A stretch of 64,000 nucleotides of DNA from Methylocella silvestris BL2 (GTDB lineage: Bacteria; Pseudomonadota; Alphaproteobacteria; Rhizobiales; Beijerinckiaceae): the NCBI RefSeq assembly GCF_000021745.1, contig NC_011666.1:3375001-3439000 (forward strand). The letters are read 5' to 3'. Made by a program: the position numbers and the translations under genes. Positions within the stretch are counted from its first letter, which is position 1, and every line of letters begins with the position of its first letter. The notes below the pieces were generated by a model. That model was not told where the DNA came from. It did not search any database and saw only the letters and a program-made list of their open reading frames with translations. Positions 29,553 to 51,265 of this stretch are shown here, piece by piece.

Positions 29553-29618
29553 GCCCTTTCACGGCGAAAACAGGGGTTCGATTCCCCTTGGGCGCGCCAA
29601 CGAAATCAATCAGTTAGC
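29553..29618 (+). repeat. Central attachment repeat: attR of element 1 and left end of element 2
   Basis: A perfect 66-bp copy of the tRNA-Glu 3' half and flank (see 11085-11150). The 5' half of the tRNA is missing, so this is not a functional tRNA. Because a second element with its own integrase ends at another copy (51209-51265), this repeat is shared between two tandem insertions. Confidence 0.95.
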
Positions 29619-29633
29619 TTGTTTTTGAGCTTC

Positions 29634-29657
29634 GTCTCACACAGCCGTCTCACACAG
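29634..29657 (+). promoter_or_regulatory. Left arm-type integrase sites of element 2
   Basis: GTCTCACACAG occurs at 29634-29644 and 29647-29657. The same 11-mer recurs at 51106-51116 near the right end, with a near copy GTCTCACAGAG at 51094-51104. Tandem copies at both termini, 12-13 bases apart, are expected for arm sites of the integrase at 49803-51086. Confidence 0.7.
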
Positions 29658-30054
29658 GGAATTTGCTTCCTTGAGCGTCGCAGGCTTCCAACCCCGTGCG
29701 CTTGAACCTTACTTTTGAGCGTGACGGATAAGGGGAGTCGACGCATATTGCGCTTGGCTGCATCTTGACGAGCGCCAGATCGCGAGCACAAATGCGCGTG
29801 GATGCCCGCCCAAGATGGGACTCTTTGGCCCAAAACGCGATCGTGTGCGACACGTCACACGGTAAAAGTTTAGGCAAAGGTAATGAAATACCCTCTTGCG
29901 TCATACTACGCCTACCCCTATCGTAGGTACGCTTTCGAGGGTTGACAGCAGATATTTTTCTGATAGAGCGCACGGCGCAGTTTGACTCGGAAACTTTCTC
30001 TCCCGTCTGGAGTTCAGGTTGGGAGCTCGAATTGTGTTTGTTGAGGAGCGAGCA
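29658..30054. other. Left end of element 2, no supported gene
   Basis: Short frames on the minus strand cover this stretch, but none has a ribosome binding site or protein-like composition. It presumably contains the promoter for the small gene at 30055. Confidence 0.4.
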
Positions 30055-30255
30055 ATGGAACGATATCCGGAATGCAAAAAGCTCGCTGCCCGCTTTGAAA
30101 AGATGGCGGCGGCTGGGCTTCTGGACGTGAAATTTTACGTCAGTGATCCGCATGAGTTGACGGCTGAAGGGCTCTGCGCTGACGTCAACGCTTTATATGA
30201 AGCCGTCGATGGAGGGAAAGCGAAGCTGCTTTCTCTTGAAGGTTGTGATAAATAG
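30055..30255 (+). CDS. Small conserved protein of mobile elements
   Basis: The 66-residue protein (starting MERYPECKKLAARFEKMAA, then LLDVKFYVSDPHELTAEGLC and DVNALYEAVDGGKAK) belongs to a short family found beside ImmA-like genes in Rhizobiales elements. GAGGAG ends 6 bases before the ATG. Function unknown. A terminator follows at 30282. Confidence 0.65.
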   Translation: MERYPECKKLAARFEKMAAAGLLDVKFYVSDPHELTAEGLCADVNALYEAVDGGKAKLLSLEGCDK

Positions 30256-30281
30256 CCTTTCCAAATAAGTTACCGTTCTAT

Positions 30282-30312
30282 AAAAGGTCTCGTTCATTCG
30301 AGGCCTTTTTTG
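30282..30312 (+). terminator. Rho-independent terminator
   Basis: An 11-bp stem (30282-30292 with 30299-30309, one T-G pair) around a 6-base loop is followed by further T residues. It separates the small gene at 30055 from the ImmA-like gene, which begins immediately downstream. Confidence 0.8.
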
Positions 30313-30324
30313 TTGGATTCAGTA

Positions 30325-30930
30325 ATGGTTTTGGACGGCAAGATTGCGGTAACGGTATTTAAAAAAGTCCGCCAAGCGCGTCATGAGATCAAAGCGTATT
30401 GTATAGCGCCAGATCAACCAGTCATCCCGCTTGGGGAACTTAAGAGAATCGTTGGCCAAATGTATCACCTGGCCATCAATGTTCATGAGCTTCCCTATAA
30501 AAGCGACCGTGTGAAAGGGCTCATGGAGCGTTACATTGATCGCGTAACAATCTATGTTAAAGAAGATTTAGATGAATATTGGAAGCGCTTCACAGTCGTG
30601 AAAGAGCTCTGCCATGTTATGAATGATGAGCCGGACGATTGGTCGTATGAGGGCGTAAACACCTTAAAGAATCTACTGACGGAGTACACTTTGCACCAAG
30701 ACTCCGCGGCGTCGCGTGCATCTCAATCAGAAATCTTTGCGGAAATCGCCGCCGTCGAACTCTTGTACCCCTTCGAACAGCGAGCGATAGACATTAACGG
30801 CGGCTCAGGTAAACCCATTGCCGAAATTGCGCGGTGGTACCACCTTCCCGAGCTGATTGTGAGTCGATCCCTCCTCGAAGGTTATCACGGTACGGTGGCT
30901 GAGATTTGGGGCCTCGTTGGATCAGAGTAG
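30325..30930 (+). CDS. ImmA/IrrE-like protein with a degenerate zinc motif
   Basis: The 201-residue protein resembles the ImmA/IrrE metallopeptidases that cleave phage or stress repressors. RFTVVKELCHVMND stands where RFTxAHELGHxxxH is expected, and FAEIAAVELLYPFEQR matches the downstream E-x-x-A-x-x-F-A-x-x-L-L-x-P segment. The first zinc-binding His is replaced by Lys (KELCH), so proteolysis is doubtful. A sensor or regulatory role is more likely. It begins 13 bases after a terminator, so it must have its own promoter in or after that region. ATG 30325 is the probable start. Confidence 0.7.
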   Translation: MVLDGKIAVTVFKKVRQARHEIKAYCIAPDQPVIPLGELKRIVGQMYHLAINVHELPYKSDRVKGLMERYIDRVTIYVKEDLDEYWKRFTVVKELCHVMNDEPDDWSYEGVNTLKNLLTEYTLHQDSAASRASQSEIFAEIAAVELLYPFEQRAIDINGGSGKPIAEIARWYHLPELIVSRSLLEGYHGTVAEIWGLVGSE

Positions 30931-31038: not shown

Positions 31039-31632
31039 ATGTGCAACGACTATGAGCAACATGTCGCCTGGAAGGCGTATTGCCAGATGATGCAGTTGCT
31101 TGAGTGGGGCATACCCGCCCGCCAGAGCGACGCAGACTTGCCGCAGGCCGACGACGTGCGGATCACCGACTTAGCCCCCGTCGTGCGAGCGGCCGGCGCC
31201 GACGTCGAGCTTGTCCCAATGAGTTTCGGGTTTCCGCCTGCCACGCCGCGCGGCGGACCCGTTTTCAATTTCAGGTCGGAGGGGCGCAGCTTTGCGAACA
31301 CCAACAGATGCCTCATCCCCGCGTCGGCGTTCTTCGAGTTTACGGGGAGCAAGTCGCCGAAGACCAAGCATCGCTTCACGCTGAGAGACGCTCCGTTCAT
31401 GGCCATTGCCGGCATATGGCGCGAGCAGAAGGGAAATCAGCCGCCGGCCTTTTCGATGCTTACGACCGCGCCGGGAGCCGACGTTGAATCCATCCATAAC
31501 CGCCAGATCGTCGTGCTTCACCCGGCAGATTGGAAGGCGTGGATTTATCTGCAAAGGCCGGAGGCTGAACTCCTGCAACCGCTGCCGGCGGGCTCGCTGA
31601 GCGTCGAGACGGTGCGAGTCGGGCGGGGATAG
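31039..31632 (+). CDS. SRAP/HMCES-family protein (SOS response-associated peptidase)
   Basis: The 197-residue protein begins MCNDYEQ. Cys2, exposed by Met removal, forms the thiazolidine crosslink with abasic sites in single-stranded DNA. Family motifs follow: FNFRSEGRSF (Asn-x-R-x-E), NRCLIPASAFFEF (catalytic Glu side) and IHNRQIVVLHPADWKAWI (His). The last is HDRMP in typical members, so the loop is slightly divergent. SRAP proteins protect abasic sites, and here it accompanies a DNA ligase as element cargo. A relic of the same gene lies in element 1 at 15547. Confidence 0.9.
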   Translation: MCNDYEQHVAWKAYCQMMQLLEWGIPARQSDADLPQADDVRITDLAPVVRAAGADVELVPMSFGFPPATPRGGPVFNFRSEGRSFANTNRCLIPASAFFEFTGSKSPKTKHRFTLRDAPFMAIAGIWREQKGNQPPAFSMLTTAPGADVESIHNRQIVVLHPADWKAWIYLQRPEAELLQPLPAGSLSVETVRVGRG

Positions 31633-31773
31633 CAACAGGCTGTGTGTAGAGTGCGCTATATCGGCGTGCCAATTCTTGGGACAGGGTGCCAAGACAAGGC
31701 GCCAACAACTGCCGGGTCGGTTTAGACTCTCAACTCGCCAGTGCGTGATGATCCTTTATTGGAGAGGGCAAAA

Positions 31774-32493
31774 GTGATTAAGTATTTCTTCTGTACGGCG
31801 CTCGCCCGCGTAAGGGCGTTTTTGAACTGCTGCTTTTTGCTCGGACAGCGGGTGGTCCGTTTCGCAAGGGAGAACGACGGTCTATTCACAGCAACATCAA
31901 CGATTGCGCTGGCATTCTTCACTCTCGGCCTCTGGTGGTCGACGGAAAAACTGTGGACCGCTGGAGAGAAGCAATTATCCCTCGCTCGCGACGCATTTGT
32001 TGCCGGCCAGAGAGCATGGCTTGGCCCATCTGATGCGGCAATTGAGCCGTTGCAGTTAAAGCAGCCAGTTCGGGGCGTATTTGTTTATCAAAACGGGGGC
32101 CATCAACCAGCCCTTCACTCCATCGGAGTGAAGGGCTTAATTTTTAGTAAAGAGGAATGGTTAGACCAAAGATCAGGCGATCCTCTTCGTAAATTGCAAC
32201 AGCAGTGTTTCAGCTCAATTCCTGAAAGCTCGAAACTTGCCTACCCGTCAATTAATTATTCCCTATTATTCGATTCAGAAAAATTGCAAGAAACCGATAA
32301 ATTTTCAACTAGTCAAGCTATGATCGACGGCAACAGCGTAATAGCCTTCGTTGGCTGCATAGCGTATGTGGGCTTTCACGAGCCCTCTATTGTAAACATA
32401 AATCACGCATCGTTTTGTTTCTACTATCAGTCTGGAGTTACGCCGAGCCCGACGCACTTAAGTATTTGTAATATCGCCAACTTCGGCGATTGA
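31774..32493 (+). CDS. Membrane-anchored hypothetical protein
   Basis: The 239-residue protein starts at GTG 31774, with GGAGAGG ending 6 bases upstream. It has a hydrophobic N-terminus (about 2-25), a second hydrophobic helix near residues 38-56 (TSTIALAFFTLGLWWS), a helical stretch (WTAGEKQLSLARDAFVAGQR) and a soluble, beta-rich C-terminal domain with several cysteines. This layout (two helices, a short coiled coil, then an extracytoplasmic or cytoplasmic domain) occurs in many uncharacterised membrane proteins of mobile elements. The GC content is lower than in its neighbours. No family is recognised. Confidence 0.55.
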   Translation: MIKYFFCTALARVRAFLNCCFLLGQRVVRFARENDGLFTATSTIALAFFTLGLWWSTEKLWTAGEKQLSLARDAFVAGQRAWLGPSDAAIEPLQLKQPVRGVFVYQNGGHQPALHSIGVKGLIFSKEEWLDQRSGDPLRKLQQQCFSSIPESSKLAYPSINYSLLFDSEKLQETDKFSTSQAMIDGNSVIAFVGCIAYVGFHEPSIVNINHASFCFYYQSGVTPSPTHLSICNIANFGD

Positions 32494-32812: not shown

Positions 32813-33823
32813 ATGGCCAAGTCCCCGCCAGCAAAGCCGCGCTCGATCAGCTGCAAGACAGATGTCGTCGCGGATGGGTTGAGGAGTCGGCCGCTTGTCT
32901 CGGCTGATCCGACAGTCCCCCAGCTCTTCGATGCGCCGCTGCCGGGCTGGATCGCGCCCTGTTTGCCGACGCTCGTCCCCAAGCCGCCGGCCGGCGAAGA
33001 ATGGGTTCACGAAATCAAATGGGACGGCTATCGGGTTTCAGCTTACGTCGAGCCAGGCGCCGTCACGATCCGCACGCGCAACGGCTATGATTGGACGGCG
33101 AGATTTCCGACGATCGCCGCTGCGCTCGGCAAGCTGAAGGTGCGGTCGCTGGTTATCGACGGCGAGGCGAGCGTGCTCGACGAGAAAGGCCGTTCGAGCT
33201 TCGCCGAGCTGCAAGCCGACCTTGCAACGGGCGGCGCGCAACGAGCCGTGCTTTACGCCTTCGATCTGCTTTTCCTCGATGGGGAAGACTGGCGCCAGCG
33301 GCCGCTAGACGAGCGGCGCGGGGCCTTGGCCGGCCTGATCAAGAAAAAGCCGCCGCTGCTTCTCAGCCAGGAATATGCCGGAACTGGCGTCGATTTTTTC
33401 AAGGTCGCTTGCGAGCATGAGCTCGAAGGGATCGTCTCGAAGCGCCTCGACAAGCCTTACCGATCCGGCCGCAGCAAGGATTGGCTGAAGACCAAATGCG
33501 TGCAGAGCGGGGAATTTGTCGTGATCGGCTATCAGCCCTCGTCCGGCGCGGTCCGGGCGCCCCTGGCCAATATCAAGGTCGCGCGATGGGAAGAAGGCGC
33601 GCTGCGCTACGCGGGAGCAGTGGGAACAGGCTTCAGCGAGCGCGTCGCCAGGATGCTGCGCGACAGGCTTGACGGCCTCAGGACGCCGCGCTGTGCGATC
33701 CCAAGGCTCAAGGTTGGGGGCGCAGTTTGGACGAAGCCCGATCTCATCGTTGAGATTGATTATCGCGGCCTCACTGCGGACGGCGAGCTTCGCCATGCGA
33801 GCTTTCGCGGGATCGCAGAATGA
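32813..33823 (+). CDS. ATP-dependent DNA ligase, LigD ligase-domain type
   Basis: The 336-residue stand-alone ligase has the adenylation Lys in HEIKWDGYRV (motif I KxDGxR), VIDGEASVLDEKG (motif III), AFDLLFLDGED (IIIa), EGIVSKRLDKPYRSGRSKDW (IV) and WLKTKC (V), followed by an OB-fold domain ending VEIDYRGLTADGELRHASFRG. It corresponds to the ligase domain of the end-joining enzyme LigD without polymerase or phosphoesterase domains. No Ku gene is present in the window. It lies beside SRAP, giving a small repair cargo module. The first 40 residues are an extension. Confidence 0.9.
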   Translation: MAKSPPAKPRSISCKTDVVADGLRSRPLVSADPTVPQLFDAPLPGWIAPCLPTLVPKPPAGEEWVHEIKWDGYRVSAYVEPGAVTIRTRNGYDWTARFPTIAAALGKLKVRSLVIDGEASVLDEKGRSSFAELQADLATGGAQRAVLYAFDLLFLDGEDWRQRPLDERRGALAGLIKKKPPLLLSQEYAGTGVDFFKVACEHELEGIVSKRLDKPYRSGRSKDWLKTKCVQSGEFVVIGYQPSSGAVRAPLANIKVARWEEGALRYAGAVGTGFSERVARMLRDRLDGLRTPRCAIPRLKVGGAVWTKPDLIVEIDYRGLTADGELRHASFRGIAE

Positions 33824-34765: not shown

Positions 34766-37702
34766 TCAAACTGAATCAGGTTTCCGCAGCATATCTGCCA
34801 TTTGAACACCTGTAACGTTCGCTCCTCTCCTTTTGAGATCGGCGCCGCGGTCGCCCTTGCCGGGGAGAATGAGCGTCCTTAGAAGCGTAGCTCCCTTTAC
34901 ACTGGCCTTATCCAGAGGAGAAACTAGCAGCTTAGCATCATTGAATTGAGCGCCCTCCAGATTAGCGTCTTCGAAGTCGGTGGTTTCGATCACCGACCCG
35001 CTGAAATTTGCGTTGGAGAGGTTGGTCCCTTTCAACTTGCATGTGCGCAACGAGGCTAACTCGAGGCGCGCGCGGCGCAGATCGGCGTGTTGCAGATCAG
35101 CAGCAAAGAGTGCTTGCCCTGTCAAGTCTGCTTCAGGAGCCACGAGATAAGCGAAGCATTTCATGACCGGGGCAGCTGCCGTGGCAATGGCAAATTGAAA
35201 TTGAAAAAACAAAATTTTATAGAACATTTTCGGGCCGAAGCTTGTGGTGAGATCGGTCTGTCCTACAACTCGTCGCAGAAGGTTGCCGAAAGCGGCCTTA
35301 TCGGGCCACGCAACCTCAATTTTTGCGCGCTCAGGATCAGTGGCGGCGATGGCTAATGAGCATGCATTGAGCACCGCCCATACCATGACCTCGGCGTTGC
35401 GCTGCCTTGCTTCCGCCACTCTCCAGGGCTGATCCGCATTGCCATTCGCCGGCAAACCATCACGGATGACCGCGGAAGCCAAACGTTCGAATCCAGATTT
35501 TAGTGCGCGAACTTCTTCTAATCCCTCAGAACTGCTGGCACGTAATTGCAATTCGCGCCGCATGTGGTCCAATAATTCGTTGGTGAGGTTGCCGGTGGCC
35601 GTGACATCGAACCATTCCTTCATCGCCGTCTCGGGCCGGCGATCAATAAGAGTGATCAGATCTAACGCTACTTCCAGAAGCGCTCGACCGGCGAGATAGT
35701 CGCCAAAGCTCTTATGTGTAAATTCAAAACCACGCGTCTCAATCTCAGCGTTCTTGAGGTAGAAGTTCATTGCGAGGTTAGTAATATCGGAGCCGTTGTC
35801 TCGAACGAAGTCATCCCAGGCATTGCCAGTTCGCAGAGACCTTGCCGCATTATGAAATCGAGCTTCGCTGCACACTCGCGTGTCGCCTCCCTGCCATCCG
35901 GCCAGAGCAATGGTTTCCATCAGTCTATTGAAGCCCTCCTGGCTTAGAAATCTCCCGGCACCTGGGCGCCGCCCGTTATCAGGGTCGTCTCCCCAACCAC
36001 GTCGCCACACCTCGTCAATCAGTTCACGATAGATCAAGTTCAGGTTCCCGGCAGCTAATTGCGCTCCTTCGGTAAGATATCCCGAGAGCACGAGGAGGTA
36101 GCATAGCAAGGGCTCGCGAGTGAGTTCTGTCAGGGCGGGGGCGGATAAGGCATGGGGTGGTTTTAAGGAAAGTCCGACCGCTGCTGCATAACCTTTCCAC
36201 CAGGTTTCCCTCTGATCGATGCGGGCAATGTCGCTCTGCTGCTCAGGCGCTGCTTTTTGAGGGGGTGCAACAGTCAGAACAGACTCTAGCACCCCTGAAG
36301 CGACGTCTAGGCCCTTACCGCCGAATTCCTCGCTCGTCTGAAAAAGTTCGGCCCCCTTAATGGGAAGAAAGCCCACGACCTCGTAGCTTTTCCTATTGAC
36401 CGCGCCCGCAAAGCGCTGAGCGGCCTGGAAGGACGGCATTCGCCCCGTGACGATGACCCGAAGACGGCTCTTTTTATCTCCGCGCAATTCGGACGTAAGC
36501 TGCCCAAGCTTGCCCATGAAGTCGCGAGCGATGTCGTTAGCAGCCTCCCCCGGTCGGGCCAGTTCATCGAGGCCGTCGAAGATGAGAACAAGCGGGGGCC
36601 CATCCTCTACCACATTGCGGGCAAGGGGCGGCTGTCTGAATGGATTTGCCGTGCGCTTAGTGAAGTGGGCGTTGATCGCCTCACGCAGATCAATAGCTGC
36701 GTCGATGTTAGCGAGGGAGATGAAAAGAGGTCGGCAGTCGTCGCGTGCCGCGAGCCTACGCGCGAGAGCTTTCGCGATCGTCGACTTTCCGCTGCCGGGG
36801 CCACCGCCCAACAGTTTCAACTCGTATTCCTCGTGGCCACCAGTCGCCCAAGCGTCAAGTTCGTCGTCCAACCAGACAAAATGAGACGCCTTCCAACGTG
36901 AAGGGGAGAGTGTAAGCGCCCGCGTCTTGACGCTTCGGGACGGAGGTCGTGGATCGTCGTGTTCTTCACGCCAGACTCCCCGAAGCGGAACATAAATTTG
37001 CGATAGTGCAATCTTGAGGGTTTCTTGCCCAAAAACCGGCTTAACCTCGAATTCGTGGATCAGGCCTTTTCGATATGCGTCCCATTCCAGACGGAACGCA
37101 TGGGCGGCTGCTCCCGGAGCATTCAGGGCGGCTGCCAGCGGTTGGTATTGTTCCGGCGACTGTGACCAAAGCAGGAATATTGCACGATCGAACGCCGCGT
37201 CGAAACGCGCCCGCAATATGTCGTCCTTCTCGCCCCCTGCCGCTCGGAACGCGCCCTTCCGTTCGACAAATGAGTCTCGCACCAGTCGGTAGAGGGGTAG
37301 CGTAGTGGGTTGGTCAAGGAATGACGTCGGGATGATCTGCTCGCCTTGATCCACTCTTTCCTTCGCTTCGGCGAGCGCATCGCGCACGGCCGTTTCGACA
37401 CCGATGTCGTCAAGTTGACCGCGAGCTCTAAGCTCGTCAAAAGCCCAGGCAAATCCTAACGCGAACAATAACCAACCGCGCTCTCCAGGCGGCGCATCTA
37501 TAGAGATGGCACCAGCAGCCTCGACCAAGCTAGAGATACCTTCAGGGATATGATCAAGGTGGCCGTGGAAAATCGCAAAGCCCGAGCCAACCACCTTGAC
37601 GATGTTGGCCACGAATTTCGGCCATTCGGCCTTCAATGTAGAGTCCCGGACCAACAAAATGCCAGTCTCGGCGCGGGCAACGGGTTTACGAGTACGCGCC
37701 AT
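34766..37702 (-). CDS. NACHT-type STAND NTPase with C-terminal pentapeptide repeats (putative anti-phage defence)
   Basis: The 978-residue protein has an N-terminal region (1 to about 280) of unknown type. A NACHT domain follows, with Walker A GGGPGSGKST (299-308), Walker B LVLIFDGLDEL (371-381) and VTGRMP downstream, then a long helical sensor-like middle. Pentapeptide repeats lie at about 855-945 (ADLTG, ADLQH, ADLRR, TNLSNANFSG, TDFEDANLEG). STAND NTPases with this architecture are often defence proteins that oligomerise on sensing phage. It is oriented leftward, is AT-richer than its neighbours, and sits directly after the cut end of a virion gene. ATG 37702/37705 with GGGGGAGG is chosen; longer frames run into that relic. 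Confidence 0.85.
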   Translation of the reverse strand: MARTRKPVARAETGILLVRDSTLKAEWPKFVANIVKVVGSGFAIFHGHLDHIPEGISSLVEAAGAISIDAPPGERGWLLFALGFAWAFDELRARGQLDDIGVETAVRDALAEAKERVDQGEQIIPTSFLDQPTTLPLYRLVRDSFVERKGAFRAAGGEKDDILRARFDAAFDRAIFLLWSQSPEQYQPLAAALNAPGAAAHAFRLEWDAYRKGLIHEFEVKPVFGQETLKIALSQIYVPLRGVWREEHDDPRPPSRSVKTRALTLSPSRWKASHFVWLDDELDAWATGGHEEYELKLLGGGPGSGKSTIAKALARRLAARDDCRPLFISLANIDAAIDLREAINAHFTKRTANPFRQPPLARNVVEDGPPLVLIFDGLDELARPGEAANDIARDFMGKLGQLTSELRGDKKSRLRVIVTGRMPSFQAAQRFAGAVNRKSYEVVGFLPIKGAELFQTSEEFGGKGLDVASGVLESVLTVAPPQKAAPEQQSDIARIDQRETWWKGYAAAVGLSLKPPHALSAPALTELTREPLLCYLLVLSGYLTEGAQLAAGNLNLIYRELIDEVWRRGWGDDPDNGRRPGAGRFLSQEGFNRLMETIALAGWQGGDTRVCSEARFHNAARSLRTGNAWDDFVRDNGSDITNLAMNFYLKNAEIETRGFEFTHKSFGDYLAGRALLEVALDLITLIDRRPETAMKEWFDVTATGNLTNELLDHMRRELQLRASSSEGLEEVRALKSGFERLASAVIRDGLPANGNADQPWRVAEARQRNAEVMVWAVLNACSLAIAATDPERAKIEVAWPDKAAFGNLLRRVVGQTDLTTSFGPKMFYKILFFQFQFAIATAAAPVMKCFAYLVAPEADLTGQALFAADLQHADLRRARLELASLRTCKLKGTNLSNANFSGSVIETTDFEDANLEGAQFNDAKLLVSPLDKASVKGATLLRTLILPGKGDRGADLKRRGANVTGVQMADMLRKPDSV

Positions 37703-42695: not shown

Positions 42696-43147
42696 ACCGC
42701 AACCACCTTTCCAAAAGATCAGGCCCTATGGTGCGCGGCATGCTTCTAAGTTGTCAAGCCAGAAAAATTCTAAAACGGCTGATATTACAGTATGTTAGCA
42801 TACTGTTGACATACGGAGAGCGGCGACGATTGTCATTGTCAGTGTGCATGCTGTTGATTAAATTCGATCTGCGGTCGGCGCGCCAACCAGCGAACTGGAA
42901 TGCTTAGGTCCGAAAATAATTTACGACCCCTCAAGCGGCTCAACCGCCGGACCAATCGGGCCGGTTGGATTTTGCGCATGGATCGCGCGGCGCTCAAAGC
43001 CTTATGCGCAGCGATACCGTCCAATTTGGGTACACCCCTACGAAACATCGCCGTGAGACATATTTCGCGTCTTAATAGGGTTGACTTTGCATTTATAAGA
43101 CGGGATAAGAAGAGGGTCTAGAGGCTATCGAGACAGTTGAGGGTGAC
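42696..43147. other. Regulatory gap upstream of the recombinase gene
   Basis: It holds the perfect palindrome at 42787-42806 and no convincing gene. A 73-codon frame at 42900-43121 has basic, non-protein-like composition and no clear ribosome binding site. The end of the gap presumably contains the serine-recombinase promoter and possible resolution site. Confidence 0.45.
42787..42806. promoter_or_regulatory. Perfect palindrome ACAGTATG-N4-CATACTGT, candidate operator
   Basis: Two perfect 8-base arms (42787-42794 and 42799-42806) flank TTAG, followed by TTGACATAC. The site lies between the leftward small gene at 42695 and the rightward recombinase gene. It has the form of a dimeric repressor site overlapping a promoter. 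Confidence 0.6.
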
Positions 43148-43702: not shown

Positions 43703-44274
43703 AACTGCATGCGGGACATCGCCGAATGTTTCTGCTCCGCGATCGCCGCAAGGAATTTCCGTCGCTCGAGCTCGGCGGCAAAGGGATTTTGCGAGGGATC
43801 ACTGACCTGCGATGCGGCGAATGATTTTTCATAGTCGCGTTCGATCAAATCAAGCATCTTGTATTCGCGAACCGGGCGGGCCGCTTGGTATTCGGCGTAA
43901 CGCCTATCAACCTCGGCCGCTTTGGCCTCTGCCGCCTGCCTCGCTTCGAAAGCCGCGTCGAGCGGCGTGATCTGCTCATCGTCGGGCCGTACGGCGTTGA
44001 GAAGGGCGACAAGCGCGTAATAGCAGGGAGCGCACGCGACCACCTGAGCTTCCTGGCGTTCGAGGGTCATCGTGCTCCCTATGGCGCCTGCGATGGCACC
44101 CCTGATTTCTTCCACGCCCGTCACTATGCGCGCTACGGCGCCCGGAAGCTCTTTCGCGCCCTGGTATATGCCGACGACGATCAGGACCGGTAAAAGAACC
44201 ACGGCGCCCCAAAACGTCAGCAACGCAAGGGCCTGTATAGTTCGCTCGAATGCTATCTTTGGAATTGCGAGCAT
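43672..44274 (-). CDS. Membrane protein with C-terminal NPFAAEL motif
   Basis: The 200-residue protein has an N-terminal hydrophobic helix (ALALLTFWGAVVLLPVLIVVG, about 15-35), then EELPGAVARIVTG-like and coiled-coil segments (EARQAAEAKAAEVDRRYAEY). Near the C-terminus it has QNPFAAELERRKFLAAIAEQ, the same word that is repeated at the start of the ejection protein at 39196-41133. It lies upstream of the ejection cluster on the same strand. The shared motif suggests one binding partner, perhaps in virion assembly. Function not otherwise visible. Confidence 0.55.
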   Translation of the reverse strand: MLAIPKIAFERTIQALALLTFWGAVVLLPVLIVVGIYQGAKELPGAVARIVTGVEEIRGAIAGAIGSTMTLERQEAQVVACAPCYYALVALLNAVRPDDEQITPLDAAFEARQAAEAKAAEVDRRYAEYQAARPVREYKMLDLIERDYEKSFAASQVSDPSQNPFAAELERRKFLAAIAEQKHSAMSRMQFQPAAAPKTR

Positions 44275-44355
44275 CTGATTTCCTTCGGTTCACAGAGGCG
44301 GCGCGGTTTGGCCGCTAACGAGCGCGCCGGGAAACGCCGCAATGGTCATCCGCAA

Positions 44356-44700
44356 TCACTCGAAAACATCGATCGGCGGCGCGTCCCTCGATTTACGCCG
44401 CTTTGCTTTCGGCGCGCTGGCGTCGGGCGACATTTGCCCGCGGCGGATGATTTGATCCAGCTCTGCGGCAGTCATTTCGGACAGCGGTTTGTCGTCGGCC
44501 GTGCCTTCCGTCTTATCAAACAAGCCAGCGGCGCGGAAGATCGAAGTTGCCGCGGTTGCTTTAGCCGGAGCGGGGGCTTTCGGGTTGTTGCAAATCTCGC
44601 GCAAGGCTGCGAACGCCTCTTCAGCGCCTTCGCGCCGGATTTTCCTACGGAGATCGGCGAGCGCTTCGATCGGTGTTGCGTTGGACTGTTTCTTGGTCAT
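44356..44700 (-). CDS. Small phage protein, terminase-small-subunit-like region
   Basis: The 114-residue protein has the pattern TPIEALADLRRKIRREGAEE, then NNPKAPAPAKATAATSIFRAAG and EMTAAELDQIIRRG. Rhizobiales prophages carry such proteins near the start of the packaging or structural region. No large terminase follows here. It is coupled by ATGA to the HGG-motif protein upstream. A DNA-binding role is a guess. Confidence 0.55.
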   Translation of the reverse strand: MTKKQSNATPIEALADLRRKIRREGAEEAFAALREICNNPKAPAPAKATAATSIFRAAGLFDKTEGTADDKPLSEMTAAELDQIIRRGQMSPDASAPKAKRRKSRDAPPIDVFE

Positions 44701-45287
44701 GGAAATAGTTTCCTCAGCGTTTCGGGCGAAAACGAGATGGGGCTTGGATCGCCAGGGGAGGCCGCTGGCTGGCTTTCGGCGCCGCGGTCAGCTTGGGCGT
44801 GGTTTCTGGCTTCGAAGGCGGCCTCGGTCGCCAGGACGATCTCCCGGAAGGCTTTGGCGTCGGCCCGCTGTTTGCGAATGCTGGCGCGACGCGTCGCCGG
44901 GCCGGGGTTCATCACGCGCTTGGCGAATTGGTTGTCGTAGGCGGCTCGCTGCTCCGGCGTCATGGCCGTCAGTTTTGCCGCGCGAGTGGCTGCGCGCTTT
45001 TTTTGGCGTTGGACAATCATCCGTTCTTTGCGCGCCAAGGCGTCGGCTCCTGCGTCTGCTGCCGGAAGCTGAATTTTGTGCCAGTCTTTTCCCTTAGGCG
45101 TCTTTCCGCCGTGAAATTTGCATCGCCCATTCGGATAGAGCACGAGCTGCTGGCATGGCTCGCCGTCGCGCTTGCGGCGGGCGCCGCAGCGCGGTCCGGC
45201 GAGGCGCTCGGCGTTGATCTTCTTCATGCGATCGGAGCAAGTCTTTCGCCACGCCGGCGACCGTTGGAAAGTGTAGGGATTATCCAT
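44697..45287 (-). CDS. HGG-motif phage protein
   Basis: The 196-residue protein has a short zinc-ribbon-like segment CGARRKRDGEPCQQLVLYPN followed by RCKFHGGKTPKGKDWHKIQL. This C..R....PC......G.C..HGG..P/TG arrangement is a widespread prophage motif of unknown function. The rest is basic and helical (KRAATRAAKLTAMTPEQRAA). It is the first gene downstream of the replication region. Confidence 0.7.
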   Translation of the reverse strand: MDNPYTFQRSPAWRKTCSDRMKKINAERLAGPRCGARRKRDGEPCQQLVLYPNGRCKFHGGKTPKGKDWHKIQLPAADAGADALARKERMIVQRQKKRAATRAAKLTAMTPEQRAAYDNQFAKRVMNPGPATRRASIRKQRADAKAFREIVLATEAAFEARNHAQADRGAESQPAASPGDPSPISFSPETLRKLFP

Positions 45288-45481
45288 GCGCGCCTGCCGG
45301 TGCTGTTTTATCTAAAAGAACGTGCGAACTTAAATCCGATCCGCGTCCGCTGATGATCGGCCGCCGACGGCTTTTCGTGATTTTAGTTGGACGGGTCTTT
45401 CCGCGGCTAAATCCGCGCGGCCGAAGTCGCAGGCCTCTGAAGAGGGCGCGCTTAAACAGCGCCAGCGACCTCTTTAGAGTG

Positions 45482-45564
45482 TTCAAGCTGTTCAAGCGGC
45501 AGCCTTTGAAATCATTGAGCTTTTTCTGGATTAAACAGCTTGAACAACTGTTCAAGCTGTTTAA
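45482..45564. repeat. 34-bp perfect palindrome and TTCAAGCTG repeats, candidate replication origin of element 2
   Basis: TTAAACAGCTTGAACA (45531-45546) and its exact complement TGTTCAAGCTGTTTAA (45549-45564) flank AC. Further copies of the same word are TTCAAGCTG at 45482-45490, TTCAAGCGG at 45491-45499, TTAAACAG at 45452-45459 and TTCAAGCC near 45629. All lie in the 341-base gap between the HGG protein and the 3' end of the replication protein. The iteron-like set next to a prim-pol/RepA gene is what a plasmid- or phage-type origin looks like. Confidence 0.7.
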
Positions 45565-45628
45565 CGCCTTGGGAGCAGACGAAAGCCGAATGATTTCAAT
45601 CTTGTCGGCTCGAACAGGCGTCATTTGT

Positions 45629-48154
45629 TCAAGCCCCGGCCAAGTCATCGTCTATGGTCTCGTCGTTGACATCGCTTGTATGTCTTAGGAGCCAAGGCGA
45701 AGCCTTATCTGCGCCTTCTTTTTCGGCCCAAACGCGAATACGTTTGTGGTCTTTGACGACGATAACACCATCCCCCGACAAATTGTCTGTGAGCGTGTTT
45801 CTGATTGTTTGCTCGCGGTCGGTTTTAGCTATTCCCGCAAGCTTTAGCGCCTTGCCCAATTCAAGATACGCTCCGCTGATTTTCAGCTGGGCGCTTCCCC
45901 CCATAACCTCCAACGCTGCGCTCGCCACGCTGCGGCGCATCACATCTTCTTCACCTGATCGAACGGCGCTCGCCTCCGCGGCTGCTTTCCTCGCATCGAT
46001 TATTTCGTGAACTATGACGGTGTCTCCGCGGCGCCGGAGCGACGCCTCGGCGTCTTCTTCGTTGAAGAGTGCGTCGGCTGTTTCTGGTGACCAATCCGCA
46101 GTCCCGTTGCCGACCGGTACGACTTTCAATCGATAGACCAGACCGCCGATCTTGGGGCCGTAATTCGCTCCGCCCATGTCAGCGCGCATGTATCGGCCAG
46201 GGGGAAGCCCTCCCCGTAGGGGGTCTTTCTCCGATACTTCGTTGAGATTGAGACTGCCGCGCACGACGCCGCCACTGGCTGAGGCGCCGCGCCCCGCATG
46301 TATGTCGTCGACGGCTTTTTCGGTTTTGCCTGTGTGATGTACGATTAATATCGCAGTATTTTCTTCGGCCGCGATAGTGATGAGCAGTCGGAATGCCGCA
46401 TCCATCGCGTCGTTTTCGTTTTCGCCGATGCCGGCCACTAGCGATACAAGCGGGTCGAGGATCACGAGCGTGGGCTTTTTCCGCCTGATCATTTCTCTAA
46501 GCTTCGCGAAGCCTGGCCCTTCAGTGACAGCGCTTGTTCTGCCGTCTTTGCGTTCGGCGACAATTAGCCTGCGGGAGCTCCCCGACCAGAGTGTTATTCC
46601 ATGCTTCACCCGGCCGATAACGCCATGAAATTTCTGAACGGCACTCAGCCGCCGTTGCATTTCCGCCTGCGGGTCTTCGGCGTTGTAAACGATAACCGGT
46701 CCGCACTTGTGCAAGCGCTCCGGTGATATATTGCCGGGGCCGCGCAAGATGCTTTCTTTTCCGGTCGCGACGGCCAAAGCGAGGCGCAGCATAAATGCGG
46801 ATTTGCCTAACTTCGATGCTCCGACAACCTGGCTCGCGGTGCAGGCCATAAGCCACGGGCTGACGATCCACTTGCGCGTTGGAAGATGTTTCGGGTCTAT
46901 CGCCTCAGTTATTTCGCAGACATCATCGGGGCCAAAGGCCTCAACGGCCTGCGGCGACTTGGCTTTGACGTCAAATCCCTCCAGCGCCCCCCGAAGCACG
47001 TCGCGGTCGGCGCCGGTCGTCAAACTAAGGCTCTCTATTGCGTCGTCTTTGTCCTCATCGATCACGTCGAAATAGACAGAGACGCGAGCGAAGTCGTTCG
47101 GGGCGTGCAGCTCTGCCTGCTCGTAAAGCCAGCTTGCGCCGCGGCGGAATGGCGGAACCATTTTGCGCCATTCTTGCGCGACGTAATCTGGATCGTTTCC
47201 GTCGGGCCCGTCGTATTTCTCAGACCACTCTTGCGCCAGCGCCTCTGCAGCGCCTGGATCGTCCGGCAGCGCCGCCTTGATTGCGTAAAGCATGTCTAGC
47301 CAGCTATCGCGCGTCGGGTAGAGCGCCTCTGTGTTCGGCAGGCTGCGCACGGCGCGCGCAACGGCTTCCGCCGACCCTGTGAACTTCGTTTGGTCGCCGC
47401 CCGAGCCCGATCCTGCCGATAGCTTGCGCCCGCGGAACTCTGCGTTCGGCATGACGTGCGAGAGCTCAAGAAAGAACGCCTCGACTTGCTCGGGCGTTAC
47501 CTCTGTCAGCTCTTTGAACGGCGGTAGCCCCTCGGGCCAGCTGTAAGGCTTTCCCGTCTTTGGATGCGTCCCGCGCATGACGATCTGGCGTCGGTCTGTG
47601 CTGAGCTCGACGAGCTCGCGCTTTCCCTCGGGGCCGTCGAACTTGACCTTTAGGAACGGGACAGGCTGCGCACAGCGGTAGAGGAAAAGCGCCTTCGGCG
47701 CCCGGCCGACGCGGGGCCGCGCCGGCCCGAGCATCTCGCGCATGAGTTCGGCCGCGCGCGCTGAAAGGCCGTGATCGAGCGTGTCTATGTCGACAGCCAG
47801 CACGCTTGACACAAGGCCTGTCATAAGGCCGACGCCGGCGCCCCAGGACGCCCATTCGACAAGATCGGCGTCCGTCGTGCTATGTGTTTGCCAGTCGTGG
47901 AAGCCAACCCAGGTTCCGTTTGCCAGGCGCTTGCCCGGTATCTTGCCAATGAGCTCTGGCCGGATGTTGGAGCTCTCGCTCATCGTCGCGTCATGCGGGA
48001 TAAGCGGCCTTAGCGCGCGATATCCGCGATCCCATAGCTCTTTGAAGCGATTGGACGAAGGCGAGCCGTGCTGCGGCGGGGCCGCCGGCGCCGCTGGTTC
48101 GTCGGCAGACGACTTGTCTTCGCCAACGCTTGGCGGTATAGAGTGATGACCCAT
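45629..48154 (-). CDS. Prim-pol / RepA-type ATPase replication protein
   Basis: The 841-residue protein begins with a bifunctional primase-polymerase domain (about 55-260): GVGLMTGLVSSVLAVDIDTL supplies the acidic catalytic pair (DID) and later HPKTGKPYSWPEG the conserved end. After a linker (about 270-420) a RecA-like ATPase follows: VVGASKLGKSAFMLRLALAV (Walker A), TLVILDPLVSLVAGIGENEN (Walker B) and TAILIVHHTGKTEKAVDDI (motif 3). This is the architecture of primase-helicases that replicate phages and integrative elements. Candidate origin repeats lie at its 3' end. Confidence 0.85.
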   Translation of the reverse strand: MGHHSIPPSVGEDKSSADEPAAPAAPPQHGSPSSNRFKELWDRGYRALRPLIPHDATMSESSNIRPELIGKIPGKRLANGTWVGFHDWQTHSTTDADLVEWASWGAGVGLMTGLVSSVLAVDIDTLDHGLSARAAELMREMLGPARPRVGRAPKALFLYRCAQPVPFLKVKFDGPEGKRELVELSTDRRQIVMRGTHPKTGKPYSWPEGLPPFKELTEVTPEQVEAFFLELSHVMPNAEFRGRKLSAGSGSGGDQTKFTGSAEAVARAVRSLPNTEALYPTRDSWLDMLYAIKAALPDDPGAAEALAQEWSEKYDGPDGNDPDYVAQEWRKMVPPFRRGASWLYEQAELHAPNDFARVSVYFDVIDEDKDDAIESLSLTTGADRDVLRGALEGFDVKAKSPQAVEAFGPDDVCEITEAIDPKHLPTRKWIVSPWLMACTASQVVGASKLGKSAFMLRLALAVATGKESILRGPGNISPERLHKCGPVIVYNAEDPQAEMQRRLSAVQKFHGVIGRVKHGITLWSGSSRRLIVAERKDGRTSAVTEGPGFAKLREMIRRKKPTLVILDPLVSLVAGIGENENDAMDAAFRLLITIAAEENTAILIVHHTGKTEKAVDDIHAGRGASASGGVVRGSLNLNEVSEKDPLRGGLPPGRYMRADMGGANYGPKIGGLVYRLKVVPVGNGTADWSPETADALFNEEDAEASLRRRGDTVIVHEIIDARKAAAEASAVRSGEEDVMRRSVASAALEVMGGSAQLKISGAYLELGKALKLAGIAKTDREQTIRNTLTDNLSGDGVIVVKDHKRIRVWAEKEGADKASPWLLRHTSDVNDETIDDDLAGA

Positions 48155-48282
48155 TACTAAATCGCCTTTCGGAAAATCCCTGCATCAGTCGCGCGCTGCA
48201 GGGATTTTTCTTGTCTGCTCTTTGGTTGTGTCGGCAGCGCACAACAAGCGCGCTCCGTTCATTTTTTCGCCGCCGGCGTCGA

Positions 48283-48630
48283 TCAGCGCCGGTCGTCGCG
48301 GCGTTCCATCATTGGCGACGTCGCGGCGGAAGCGCCCTGACGGTGGTCGGCCGGGACGCCTTGCGCGATCGACGCAGAAACCTTCCGTTCTTTTCGCTCT
48401 TGTTTCCGGAGGCCTGCCTGTGCCATCCGCCGCGCACGCCGTGTGCTGAACAGCGCCGGCTCTTTGCCTCGGACGCGCACAGATCGTTCAACACGCAAAT
48501 CGACGCGGACGTTTGTCCCGTCCGGACCGATTTCGAAGATAAAGGCTCCTGGGTCGAGGTTCGAGATTTTCGAAGCAAGCGCATCTACGACGCCACTCCG
48601 GGGAGGCACCTGAGGCCGGGTCGTTTTCAT
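48283..48630 (-). CDS. Small basic hypothetical protein
   Basis: The 115-residue protein starts at ATG 48630 with GAGGA 8 bases upstream. The first half is beta-like (ISNLDPGAFIFEIGPDGTNV, VRVDLRVERSVRVRG), the second very basic (RRARRMAQAGLRKQERKERK). It precedes the replication protein gene on the same strand. No family is recognised. Confidence 0.5.
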   Translation of the reverse strand: MKTTRPQVPPRSGVVDALASKISNLDPGAFIFEIGPDGTNVRVDLRVERSVRVRGKEPALFSTRRARRMAQAGLRKQERKERKVSASIAQGVPADHRQGASAATSPMMERRDDRR

Positions 48631-48762
48631 AGGGCTGTCCTCGTAAGCCGACGCACCCGCGCGAGTTCCGAGCGCTTCGTGCGCTGCAGGGATTTTTCTT
48701 GCGCTCCGGGCCTCAAGTGTCCGGCTCTACATTCTTCCCACAATCTTTGCCGCGTAGACATT

Positions 48763-49215
48763 TCAATCCTCCATATGCGTTGGCGCCGGTCTGCAGCGCT
48801 GTTGTTGCTCAGGGCCGGTCAGCACGAGGAGCGCCAGCTCGAGGTCTTGCTCGGCTTCCTCGATCGCAAGGCAGGACAGCAACACGCCCAGCGCTCGCTT
48901 TGCCCACTTATTTCTTCGCCGCTCGCTTGGCTCGACGTCATCCTCGGCAACAGCCATCAACAGGCCCTCGAAGATATCGACGGCCTCGGCAGCGCCGGCG
49001 TCAGCAAACGGGAGCGTGAAGCGCCCTGCGACGACCTCAACGCGAGCTCGGGCGCCAAAGCGCTTCGGCGTGTCGCAACAGGCGACGAGCAGCGCGAACG
49101 TCCGCAAGGCGATGGATCGACCGAAAACGGCTTCAAACCGTGCTGGCGCGTTGGATTGGCTTAGGCGCTTGATCGTCGCTTGCAGCGTGCCGAAGGCCTG
49201 CGCGCGATCGATCAC
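48763..49215 (-). CDS. Hypothetical protein coupled to the HTH gene
   Basis: The 150-residue protein has RTFALLVACCDTPKRFGARA and later KRALGVLLSCLAIEEAEQDL, mostly helical with two Cys pairs. It overlaps the HTH gene by ATGA, so the two are made together. No family is recognised. Confidence 0.55.
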   Translation of the reverse strand: MIDRAQAFGTLQATIKRLSQSNAPARFEAVFGRSIALRTFALLVACCDTPKRFGARARVEVVAGRFTLPFADAGAAEAVDIFEGLLMAVAEDDVEPSERRRNKWAKRALGVLLSCLAIEEAEQDLELALLVLTGPEQQQRCRPAPTHMED

Positions 49216-49562
49216 ACCGCACCGCCGCTAGCGCGCCAATTCGCCCGCGCGAGTTCTGAGCGCTTCGCACGCGCCGCCTTGCCGCGATTCGATGGCGCCC
49301 ATGGCTCCGCGCTCTCAATGAGCTTGATGAGGCCCGGCGTCTCTACCAGCACACGTCCGGCGAGGCGGCGCAGTACAAGCCGGCCTTGCTCTGCCATGCG
49401 ATAGACAGAGGTCGGCGAAATGCCGCAGACCTGGCTTGCGAGGCTGACCGTTACGAACTGACGGTCGGTCCATGGTAGCGCATCCCTGTCGCCGACAACG
49501 CCGCGGCGCGTTCGGGTTGTGACTGCTTTGTCCGGTGTGGCTTGGTTGGTAGGGCGTCTCAT
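49212..49562 (-). CDS. HTH protein (AlpA/excisionase-like)
   Basis: The 116-residue protein has one HTH: FVTVSLASQVCGISPTSVYR, then MAEQGRLVLRRLAGRVLVET (wing) and PGLIKLIESAEPW, the MerR/AlpA-type single-domain pattern of excisionases and element activators. N- and C-terminal tails are basic. It lies just after the integrase gene on the same strand, behind a 240-base gap holding three phased repeats (49658-49687). A role in excision or early control is likely by analogy with P4-type elements. Confidence 0.75.
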   Translation of the reverse strand: MRRPTNQATPDKAVTTRTRRGVVGDRDALPWTDRQFVTVSLASQVCGISPTSVYRMAEQGRLVLRRLAGRVLVETPGLIKLIESAEPWAPSNRGKAARAKRSELARANWRASGGAV

Positions 49563-49657
49563 GACCTAGACTTTCCTTGCGGCTGTATAGGAAAGCTATG
49601 TCAAGCAAGACGATGGGGCAACGCCGCGTTTGGAAGAAACGCCATATAAATCAATGA

Positions 49658-49687
49658 TGTATGTCAGATGTATGCCAAGTGTATGTC
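49658..49687. promoter_or_regulatory. Three direct repeats TGTATG(T/C)C phased at 11 bp
   Basis: TGTATGTC (49658-49665), TGTATGCC (49669-49676) and TGTATGTC (49680-49687) start exactly 11 bases apart, one DNA helical turn. They lie in the otherwise empty 240-base gap upstream of the HTH gene. This is a typical binding array for a small cooperative DNA-binding protein such as an excisionase or AlpA-like activator. Confidence 0.6.
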
Positions 49688-49802
49688 TATATTAATTGGG
49701 CGCATTTGCGCCCATCTGACTCATAAGTATCTGAGTTGCTGTTGATTGAAACAGTTCATGGTGAACTGTCGGCGTGGACCGTCAAGAACCTATCACGAAT
49801 TG

Positions 49803-51086
49803 TTACAGATGAGACGCCGGCGCGAGCGTCATCACGGCGCGCCTGGCGAGCTCTTCGGTCGCGTCGACGATATAGGCGGCGTAGTGCTTCTCAATCATCG
49901 CCGTGCTCGTATCGTGAAGCGCCGCAACGAGGCGTACCGGCAGGCCACAGCTCAAGCCGTGCACGATCGAGGTATGGCGCAGCGCGTACATCACCGTCCC
50001 GGCAGGGAGGCCTGCCGACTTGATCGCCGCGCCCCAGAGGCGATCGGTTTCGCTCGCCGTCTTCCACGGCTGCCGGCTGGTCCGCTCCCAAACGAAGGGG
50101 CCGGTCTGCTTGACATGCCAACGAAGCAAGAGCGGCTCATGGCCGCGCCGGCCGTTCAGCGCGGGCTTGAGCCTTTCCGCCACGTCTTCGCCGATCGGCA
50201 CGGCGATGCGCGCCGCCTGCTTCGCGCCGCGGCCCTTTTTTGAAACCGGGATCATGATGCGAAGCTTGCCGACTTGCACGTCTGCAACCGTCAGGGCGGC
50301 GATCTGAGAGAACCGGGCGCCGGTCGACGCGACGAGCAGCACGAGCCGGCCAAAGTCGCCGCTCTCCTCGACTGCGAAGGCCGCGGACACGACGCCGCGC
50401 ACGTCTGCATCTGAAAGCACCTGTCGGCGGGCCTCTGTCGCCGACGGCAAAGCCTTTGTGCCGGATTTGATATCGCCGGCGACATGGGCGGGAAGCTCGC
50501 GGCGATGGCGTTCAGCCATCGCGTTGAGCGCGGCGCGCAGATCGTTCAGGAGCCGATTGACCGTCGAGGGACGAAGCGTCTTCGGAAGGCCCTCACGCCA
50601 ACGCCGAAGGCTTGCGGCCGTCAGCCGGGCCAGCGTCAGCTTGGCAAAGCGCTCGTCGCTGAGGACGTGCTTCGTCAGCCGCGATTTGGCGTCATTTCCG
50701 CTCGCCGATTTGGCCTCGCGCTCGGCGATATAGGCCGTGATCGCGGATTGAACCGTCGGAACTTCGGCGCCGAAGTCGCCGTCTTCGCGCGCCTCGATCC
50801 CGGCAAATTTCTGACGGCCCCAGCTGAGCGCCGCTGAAACGGCTTGAGGGTAGGGCAGGCCGCCGGCCGGAGCTCCGGCGTCGTCTGCCGGCGCAATCCG
50901 TTCTTCGATGCGGACGCCAGCAACCACGATCTTTGCAACCCATGATCCGGCGCCGCGGGCGGGCTTCCGATAGCCAAGCGAGACGCCGCCGCGGCCGCCG
51001 GAAATGCCATGCCAATAGGGGTTGCGGTTCGCCGGCAACTTCGTGCGCTTGGCCGCCGTATCGAACGCGGCTTTCTCGGTCGCCAT
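49803..51086 (-). CDS. Tyrosine recombinase (integrase) of element 2
   Basis: The 427-residue integrase differs clearly from that of element 1. Catalytic motifs are TGARFSQIAALTVADVQ (Arg I), MYALRHTSIVHGL (x-L-R-H, Arg II; the usual first His is Tyr/Ala-region here) and DTSTAMIEKHYAAYI (Tyr nucleophile). The N-terminus has WHGISGGRGGVSLGYRKPAR and a SAM-like core-binding domain (TKHVLSDERFAKLTLARLTA). Its 5' end faces the decayed att repeat at 51209, and GTCTCAC-type sites lie between. It probably remains functional because the reading frame is intact. Confidence 0.9.
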   Translation of the reverse strand: MATEKAAFDTAAKRTKLPANRNPYWHGISGGRGGVSLGYRKPARGAGSWVAKIVVAGVRIEERIAPADDAGAPAGGLPYPQAVSAALSWGRQKFAGIEAREDGDFGAEVPTVQSAITAYIAEREAKSASGNDAKSRLTKHVLSDERFAKLTLARLTAASLRRWREGLPKTLRPSTVNRLLNDLRAALNAMAERHRRELPAHVAGDIKSGTKALPSATEARRQVLSDADVRGVVSAAFAVEESGDFGRLVLLVASTGARFSQIAALTVADVQVGKLRIMIPVSKKGRGAKQAARIAVPIGEDVAERLKPALNGRRGHEPLLLRWHVKQTGPFVWERTSRQPWKTASETDRLWGAAIKSAGLPAGTVMYALRHTSIVHGLSCGLPVRLVAALHDTSTAMIEKHYAAYIVDATEELARRAVMTLAPASHL

Positions 51087-51093
51087 GATTTCC

Positions 51094-51116
51094 GTCTCAC
51101 AGAGCGTCTCACACAG
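51094..51116 (+). promoter_or_regulatory. Right arm-type integrase sites of element 2
   Basis: GTCTCACAGAG (51094-51104) and GTCTCACACAG (51106-51116) lie between the integrase start and the right attachment site. The second is identical to the pair at 29634 and 29647 near the left end. Confidence 0.7.
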
Positions 51117-51208
51117 TGGTATGGACTGCCCAGGAGATAGAAGATAGCGAAATCGTTATATTACAGTAACTTAGGTTTTGTCTGGACAGTCAAAAAGTGG
51201 CTTGAGCG

Positions 51209-51265
51209 GCCCTTTCACGGCGAAAACATTGGTTCGATTCCCCTTGGATGCGCCAATGAAATCAA
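51209..51265 (+). repeat. Decayed attR of element 2 (third copy of tRNA-Glu 3' end)
   Basis: Over 57 bases this copy matches the 66-bp repeat with five substitutions (GG to TT in the T-arm, GC to AT in the acceptor stem, one C to T after the gene). After that the flank diverges. A tRNA made with these changes could not fold, so it is only an attachment scar. The divergence suggests that the insertion is old or that the site was formed by a different, related target sequence. Confidence 0.85.

Follow-up and report, generated by a model that had tools for sequence, protein, structure and literature searches.

Phage-inducible chromosomal islands (PICIs), a class of phage satellites, feature an integrase, an AlpA-type regulator, a primase, a small terminase (TerS), attachment (att) sites at tRNA genes and accessory genes, and are devoid of capsid genes. 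P4-like satellites are marked by the Psu, Delta, Sid and Epsilon genes. The genome of Methylocella silvestris BL2, a single contig of 4,305,430 bases, hosts an island, here called element 2, at positions 29553-51265 of the window (the whole stretch of 64,000 nucleotides analysed, positions 3375001-3439000 of NC_011666.1, G000:C1 in our numbering). Judged from its genes, element 2 is probably a PICI-like phage satellite, one of a family recurring in Hyphomicrobiales, which would bring its own DNA ejection proteins into the capsid of a helper phage. Elements of the family resemble PICIs in the integrase, the AlpA-type regulator, the primase/replication gene, a TerS-like gene, a size of 12-24 kb, tRNA att sites, accessory genes and the lack of capsid genes. 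They differ from PICIs in carrying DNA ejection/internal virion proteins and a serine resolvase, in having TerS reduced to its C-terminal part and accompanied by a zinc-finger gene, and in having been found here in Hyphomicrobiales.

Capsid-forming PICIs (cfPICIs; PMC10690885) similarly bring some virion proteins of their own. In contrast to cfPICIs, which own capsid, portal and large terminase (TerL) genes, the present elements bring ejection proteins only, and no capsid, portal or TerL gene was detected in them. Phage-inducible chromosomal minimalist islands (PICMIs; PMC10803314, PMC11389934) share the int, alpA and primase core, and are minimal elements whose packaging is believed to depend on a DNA motif; unlike them, the family described here has TerS-like and ejection genes. 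EcCIMP1 (PMC11773190) is a PICI with integrase, AlpA and primase/helicase, the helper of which is vB_EcoP_Kapi1, a podophage by its name; it differs from element 2 as no terminase or capsid gene is identifiable in it, and the words ejection and injection are absent from the main text of that paper. No P4-like Psu, Delta, Sid or Epsilon gene was found among the Pfam matches of 20 window proteins, none of these genes being searched by name. In the open literature, subscription papers and preprints being outside the scope, no description was found of satellites with ejection proteins, or of satellites in rhizobia or Alphaproteobacteria, and phage satellites and ejection proteins were found paired only in a paper on Staphylococcus aureus gene transfer.

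A tRNA-Glu gene at 11056-11131 is followed by two elements in tandem, and at the close of each the 3' end of this tRNA is repeated. Element 2 is bounded by a 57-bp repeat of this 3' end, the two copies (29553-29609 and 51209-51265, both on the plus strand) being 91% identical. The left copy is common to the right end of element 1, and ARAGORN finds a tRNA-Glu at 29522-29595. Two CGTCTCACACAG repeats at the left end (29633-29657, plus strand) and two at the right end (51093-51116, plus strand; one with 1 mismatch) are putative integrase arm sites. Four CGTCTCACACAG sites with at most one mismatch are found in the whole window, 0.20 being expected by chance, and all lie just inside the ends of element 2. 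Integrase arm sites resemble such paired end repeats, and confinement of the pairs to both termini suggests that the two ends belong together. Element 2 has its own integrase and a specific att site. No empty integration site was found by using the host flanks in 15 genomes of the genus; every one of them matches the left flank, and 12 match the right flank, in pieces only except for the window's own genome.

The integrase, the AlpA-like helix-turn-helix (HTH) protein and the prim-pol/RepA protein called in the initial annotation were all recovered, all on the minus strand. The tyrosine integrase (49803-51086; Pfam PF00589) is 62% identical to the integrase of the G147 element (genomes other than that of M. 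silvestris are cited by such handles). The AlpA-like gene next to it (49212-49562) has homologs in G530 and G147, and scores 20.8 bits against HTH_17, under the 27-bit cut-off. RepA (45629-48154) features Prim-Pol, PriCT_2 and AAA_25 domains in Pfam. An AlpA-type regulator resides near the integrase, and a primase/replication gene is present. A candidate origin also called there is unconfirmed; the tandem-repeat scan, the one approach tried, returned three short arrays, namely the end repeat, 42377-42403 (14 bp x 1.9) and 49656-49687 (11 bp x 2.9).

The DNA ejection proteins likewise stand. All ejection genes are on the minus strand. The large ejection protein (39196-41178) matches phrog_26400 (E 6e-31), and ORF2, an internal virion protein (38705-39199), matches phrog_308 (E 2e-7) and is 48% identical to its counterpart in RHph_N65 (MN988536), the closest complete phage found. 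ORF1, the third protein of the cluster (37947-38636), is 39% identical to RHph_N65 over 59% of the query. The truncated gene reported before the NACHT gene corresponds to what is left of a further ejection gene, 43 codons from its C-terminal end (37795-37923), located at the cargo junction and 84% identical to the C-terminus of the ejection-protein fragment of G530. Four further genes are conserved in relatives. One is a serine resolvase/invertase (43148-43702, plus strand; Pfam PF00239). The other three, on the minus strand, have unassigned roles, and encode proteins of 209 aa (41210-41839; homologs in G040 and G530), 200 aa (43672-44274; 94% in G040) and 150 aa (48763-49215; homolog in G040).

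Two genes overlooked in the initial annotation bear on packaging. A TerS-like gene (44356-44700, minus strand) encodes the C-terminal region of small terminases without the N-terminal HTH, and has been aligned with the G010 TerS and its RHph_N65 homolog. It is overlapped by a gene for an HGG zinc-finger-like protein (44697-45287, minus strand), in which C34, C45, C56 and H59 are invariant in 7 sequences. In G010, RepA is followed by a 154-aa protein which matches phrog_51 (E 5e-6), scores 25.0 bits against Terminase_2 (just under the cut-off of 26.1), and is 44% identical to the RHph_N65 gene; the window copy is recognised by alignment to G010 alone. Other members have at the same place the HGG zinc-finger gene and then, or overlapping it, a gene of 95-117 aa. 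Because the short gene aligns with the C-terminal part of TerS and the zinc-finger gene is in front of it, we infer that the two make up a split small terminase, the zinc-finger protein possibly being the DNA-binding half. The window zinc-finger and TerS-like proteins gave no match to phages in tblastn searches. The TerS-like gene is labelled in all 15 element stretches (the window and 14 others) and a replication protein in 13; the G041 element (6.5 kb), which has RepA and no TerS seen, is outside this set.

The same reduced form is conserved in other genomes. A close relative, G040, matches most of the 37800-49207 region in the same order, as four blocks with a DNA identity of 85-89%; divergence is higher in part of RepA, and integrase and HTH differ from those of the window. 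G530 keeps ORF1, ORF2, the 209-aa gene, the resolvase and the TerS-like gene, has a different RepA, and retains only an ejection-protein fragment and integrase fragments. G040 and G530 represent the window-type variant of the architecture. Several such islands were noticed in G076 (L027, L028, L056-L059), with four full and one partial ORF2 copies; the ejection-cluster DNA is 97-99.7% identical between copies, which occur in both orientations, and at least three are near tRNA-Glu repeats. The G076a island has tRNA-Glu on one side and a repeat of the 3' end of this tRNA on the other. G076a and G076c feature ORF1 and ORF2, and a different gene, of 229 aa, takes the place expected for the large ejection protein. 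Counting the window's own genome, ORF2 is found in 4 of 15 genomes of the genus (E 1e-10). In the family, the ejection protein is matched in 4 and RepA in 8 of 149 genomes (E 1e-8 and E 1e-30, respectively). In the order, an ejection profile matches 13 of 397 genomes (E 1e-20), in some cases outside satellites, and a narrower satellite ejection profile matches 2 of 337 genomes of the class (E 1e-40).

Outside the genus, the order HTH-RepA-TerS-resolvase-(X-Y)-injection-ejection is found in G147, G010, G051, G357, G376 and G287. All of them have the zinc-finger gene in front of TerS except G010, where TerS is a single longer gene. X and Y are the two genes preceding the injection gene, and BLAST does not detect them in all members; their comparison by hhalign (E 3e-4, probability just 39%) suggests that they may be paralogs. 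PHROG and Pfam alone are blind to X, Y, the injection protein of G051 and the ejection protein of G147 (above 0.24), which were named by BLAST to RHph_N65 and to each other. A profile comparison gave no support to the window 209-aa gene as the counterpart of X. G392 has a like architecture without a recognised resolvase; in G516 the ejection gene is shortened, and BLAST does not connect its RepA with those of other members. The HTH genes of G357, G376, G392, G287 and G516 match a small local model with E 4e-9 or better. The integrase adjoins the HTH gene in G147, G010, G287 and G392, whereas G051 and G357 have it at the opposite end; none was seen in the contig or fetched stretch of G376.

Of 13 loci probed, 9 are flanked by direct repeats, element 2 being one of the 9. 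Five ejection-type islands of 14.6-23.8 kb are closed by exact tRNA repeats of 45-53 bp: G147 (52 bp, 14.6 kb inside), G010 (45 bp, 21.6 kb), G357 (48 bp, 23.8 kb), G392 (45 bp, 23.6 kb) and G287 (53 bp, 23.5 kb). Repeats also flank G530 (50 bp, 98% identical; 17.8 kb inside), G109 (72 bp, 94% identical; 11.7 kb) and the G041 element of about 6.5 kb (51 bp, exact), which features Int, HTH and RepA. No flanking repeats were found in G376 (at a contig end), G040 (at a contig start), G051 and H000. The target is a tRNA-Glu, tRNA-Thr or tRNA-Arg in the 8 loci where ARAGORN found a tRNA. A second island was noticed in the M. silvestris genome itself (G000:C1:3041000-3053000; L082, L083), with a shortened integrase, an HTH gene, a protein which on visual inspection resembles a primase/helicase, and an ejection protein sharing 42% identity with the G147 one; neither a phrog_2 TerL match nearby nor a flanking repeat was found.

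Virion genes were searched with 20 query proteins (3 from element 1, 12 from RHph_N65, 5 from the Bradyrhizobium phage ppBeUSDA76-2), which are TerL, head, tail and lysis candidates, several, as the portal, named by position only. In tblastn at E 0.01, none matched any of the 15 element stretches; the same queries were positive in 4 of 5 control regions (one a self-match), H049 being negative. Of 39 places matching the TerL family phrog_2 in 13 carrier genomes, none is inside the elements, and one is in element 1 of the window. PHROG scans covered 134 non-core proteins (of 136 measuring at least 120 aa, two lying across a cut) and 32 larger ones. By these searches, and among the PHROG families listed, no TerL, portal, capsid or tail gene is detected in element 2, as initially stated; packaging and virion genes such as a complete prophage holds inside its att sites are not found there.

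The ejection genes of the window are under strong purifying selection, as the ratio of nonsynonymous to synonymous substitution rates (dN/dS) measures 0.06-0.09 against one relative, G040 (ORF2 0.057, ORF1 0.058, ejection protein 0.085). The dN/dS of decaying genes is expected to drift towards 1. In the same comparison values are 0.045 for the resolvase, 0.14 for the TerS-like gene, 0.18 for the 200-aa gene, 0.22 for the 209-aa gene, 0.26 for the zinc-finger gene and 0.40 for the 150-aa gene. Values range from 0.05 to 0.36 for the five genes compared with G530, and are 0.16 (ORF2) and 0.23 (ORF1) against G076. In a quick tree of 20 ejection proteins, with SH-aLRT support only, the proteins of different members group with different phages. 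One clade unites G147, G357, G376, G392 and G287. The proteins of G010 and G051 are sister to those of RHph_N65 and the viral contig L101 (41 kb), and those of the window and G040 cluster with G076d/e, ppBeUSDA76-2 and the G435 prophage. The row L102, with a very long branch and a strand opposite to its match, is probably an artefact. An ejection module exchanged between lineages, yet kept under selection, argues for use.

RHph_N65 (48.7 kb, with an annotated TerL) is the one phage record matching the window ejection protein, ORF2, ORF1 and the G010 TerS; these matched 3, 2, 1 and 1 phage records, respectively, whereas RepA and injection proteins were compared with RHph_N65 directly only. The RepA, TerS, injection and ejection proteins of the G010 element have homologs in RHph_N65 (41%, 44%, 31% and 48-57%, respectively). 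Unlike the satellites, RHph_N65 is a complete phage with TerL, and tblastn with X and Y from three satellites finds nothing in it. The ejection protein of ppBeUSDA76-2 (OP596614) is 36% identical over 66% of that of the window, but the record is 41.8 kb long and features TerL and tail-fibre genes. Viral contigs scanned with the ORF2 alignment, the G010 ejection protein and the window ejection protein revealed no relatives; two were found with the satellite ejection profile. Element 1 (11131-29552), which shares the tRNA-Glu array, is a prophage in decay; it encodes TerL, head maturation protease, baseplate hub and helicase, and its 16908-18779 gene clusters with G076a genes. Element 1 is unlikely to be a resident helper, being only a remnant, with no portal or capsid among the 10 of its proteins scanned.

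Alternative origins can be envisaged. Simple prophage decay had initially been named as another explanation of the data: element 2 would be a decayed RHph_N65- or ppBeUSDA76-2-like prophage which lost the virion block, NACHT being a later arrival. The RepA, TerS, injection and ejection homologs that RHph_N65 carries alongside its TerL make such a descent possible, and the 43-codon ejection remnant and the decay of the neighbouring element 1 fit with it. Decay is nonetheless disfavoured, and appears improbable, because the reduced form recurs, closed by tRNA repeats in several genera and families, no TerL, portal or capsid gene was detected inside, and the ejection genes of the window are under selection. 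The gene order ejection-ORF2-ORF1 of the window is moreover unlike the order ORF2-ORF1-injection-ejection of the phage, and integrase, RepA and ejection genes vary between members otherwise alike. Recurrence of the core without capsid genes in relatives was the check set in the initial annotation, and its outcome sides with the satellite reading proposed there. Element 2 could also be a genomic island keeping ejection proteins for another purpose, as the blocking of phage entry or ejection, and either moved by ordinary transduction or immobile. Defence-type genes adjoin the ejection cluster, and a full ejection protein is lacking in some members, but defence alone needs neither the TerS-like gene found in 15 of 15 element stretches nor the replication protein found in 13, and we hold this explanation unlikely. 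That virion genes elsewhere in the same genome serve the island as the other half of a split phage is very unlikely: TerL genes reside elsewhere in all 13 carrier genomes searched, but in 11 none of the RHph_N65 type was found, and other TerL types show no link to any island.

Several data weigh against the satellite reading. RepA is less constrained than the ejection genes (dN/dS 0.46 against G040). The window TerS-like protein, taken alone, matches nothing in Pfam and PHROG, and its structure model is poor (mean pLDDT 63.8). The internal virion protein is the only named head family among the families listed, which are 25 of the 79 and 25 of the 34 matched, and one of the proteins scanned matches a minor tail family with lysin activity in PHROG. 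The ends of the G040, G051, G376, G516 and G076b-c elements were placed by hand, and not by repeats at both ends. G109 and G041 lack ejection genes, with no TerS match either in G041, and G530 and G076a-c lack a full ejection protein. Of the 13 carrier genomes, 2 have a weak match to an RHph_N65-type TerL and 11 have none (E 1e-5), so that no resident helper of this type is seen, and a helper of this kind would need to come in with an infection. Helper dependence, excision, induction and packaging into particles are predictions from the genes.

The RepA, zinc-finger and TerS-like proteins of the family often terminate with F-x, mostly as [ILV]-F-x. This C-terminal end is found in 30 of 38 core proteins (RepA 7/13, zinc-finger 8/10, TerS-like 15/15), in 14 of 246 other element proteins and in 14 of 507 flank proteins (at least 80 aa); as members are homologous within each family, the counts are not independent. 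F-x tails are carried by the 44356-44700 and 44697-45287 genes of the window, by RepA/TerS of G010, G147, G051, G357, G376, G392 and G287, and in L053; the window RepA has none. The [LIVM]-F-x end marks 30 of 283 element proteins versus 5 of 508 others, and 13 of the 66 called RHph_N65 proteins, several annotated as DNA-metabolism proteins. It was found in 2/78 proteins of ppBeUSDA76-2, 0/49, 0/41 and 0/20 in three other prophage regions, 1/13 in L101 and 1/44 in H000. Our guess is that F-x is a docking tail for a common partner, the sliding clamp being one candidate, and could link replication and packaging of satellite and helper.

If element 2 is a satellite, its cycle may be depicted as follows. 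A podovirus-type helper, the nearest complete relative being RHph_N65, would infect or be induced, and the island would excise and replicate with RepA. The TerS-like protein, with its zinc-finger partner, would recruit the helper TerL, and island DNA would enter helper capsids. Satellite ejection proteins would be loaded in place of, or beside, those of the helper, and the DNA, delivered to the next cell, would integrate at a tRNA gene. That helper capsids are hijacked in this way with the satellite's own ejection machine, the module being changed in each lineage for different podovirus helpers, and F-x tails possibly acting as a docking code, is a tentative proposal, somewhat short of an even chance.

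A NACHT NTPase gene (34766-37705, scanned as 34766-38002; minus strand), with an NNH3-like N-terminus and a pentapeptide C-terminus, is defence-type cargo. The protein scores 31.1 bits against Pfam PF05729 (cut-off 26.7), is above the cut-off for PF00805, and scores 21.9 bits against NNH3 (cut-off 27); no match at 1e-5 was found in PADLOC. The position behind ORF1 hosts an esterase-like/TPR protein in G040, a SIR2 protein in G530 (PADLOC PDC-S65, E 2e-203), and VWA and PP2C genes, with a weak kinase match below cut-off, in one G076 island. Because relatives hold different genes at the same junction, NACHT is placed by this comparison in an exchangeable cargo slot beside the ejection cluster. 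The suggestion that it stands in place of a virion module is not supported, as no member examined has such a module. An IetS homolog (E 1.6e-261) resides further along the G287 island; other islands carry cargo without a clear defence role, such as GGDEF-EAL, esterase and RTX-repeat proteins. NACHT probably defends the host, and hence the satellite, against other phages.

The left part of element 2 hosts, on the plus strand, genes for an IrrE-like (Peptidase_M78) protein (30325-30930, scanned as 30310-30930; Pfam PF06114), an SRAP/HMCES-type protein (31039-31632; Pfam PF02586) with homologs in the G051, G041, G357 and G392 loci, a hypothetical protein without Pfam and PHROG matches (31741-32493), and an ATP-dependent DNA ligase (32813-33823; Pfam PF01068, PF04679). 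Possible end-joining genes recur as cargo, with ligase-like genes in the window (32813-33823) and in G010 (L065 7085-7639), and a Ku-like protein, by our interpretation, in the G051 island (L063 4272-5180); a Ku-like PHROG family matched one unnamed protein. On the far side of element 2, an ORF1 fragment (61340-61609, 70%) is found beside a 1255-aa TPR-like gene, and 56744-57634 matches the gene for an HhH-GPD protein on the left side of the G040 contig; together they are perhaps the remnant of a further element.

To our knowledge, the satellites described so far either appropriate capsids, or supply capsids and appropriate tails. If the proposed reading is true, parasite and helper could share out the virion in a third manner, the parasite bringing ejection proteins only. 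RHph_N65-like phages are offered as helper candidates, and phage satellites with exchangeable defence-type cargo would extend to Hyphomicrobiales, methanotrophs included.

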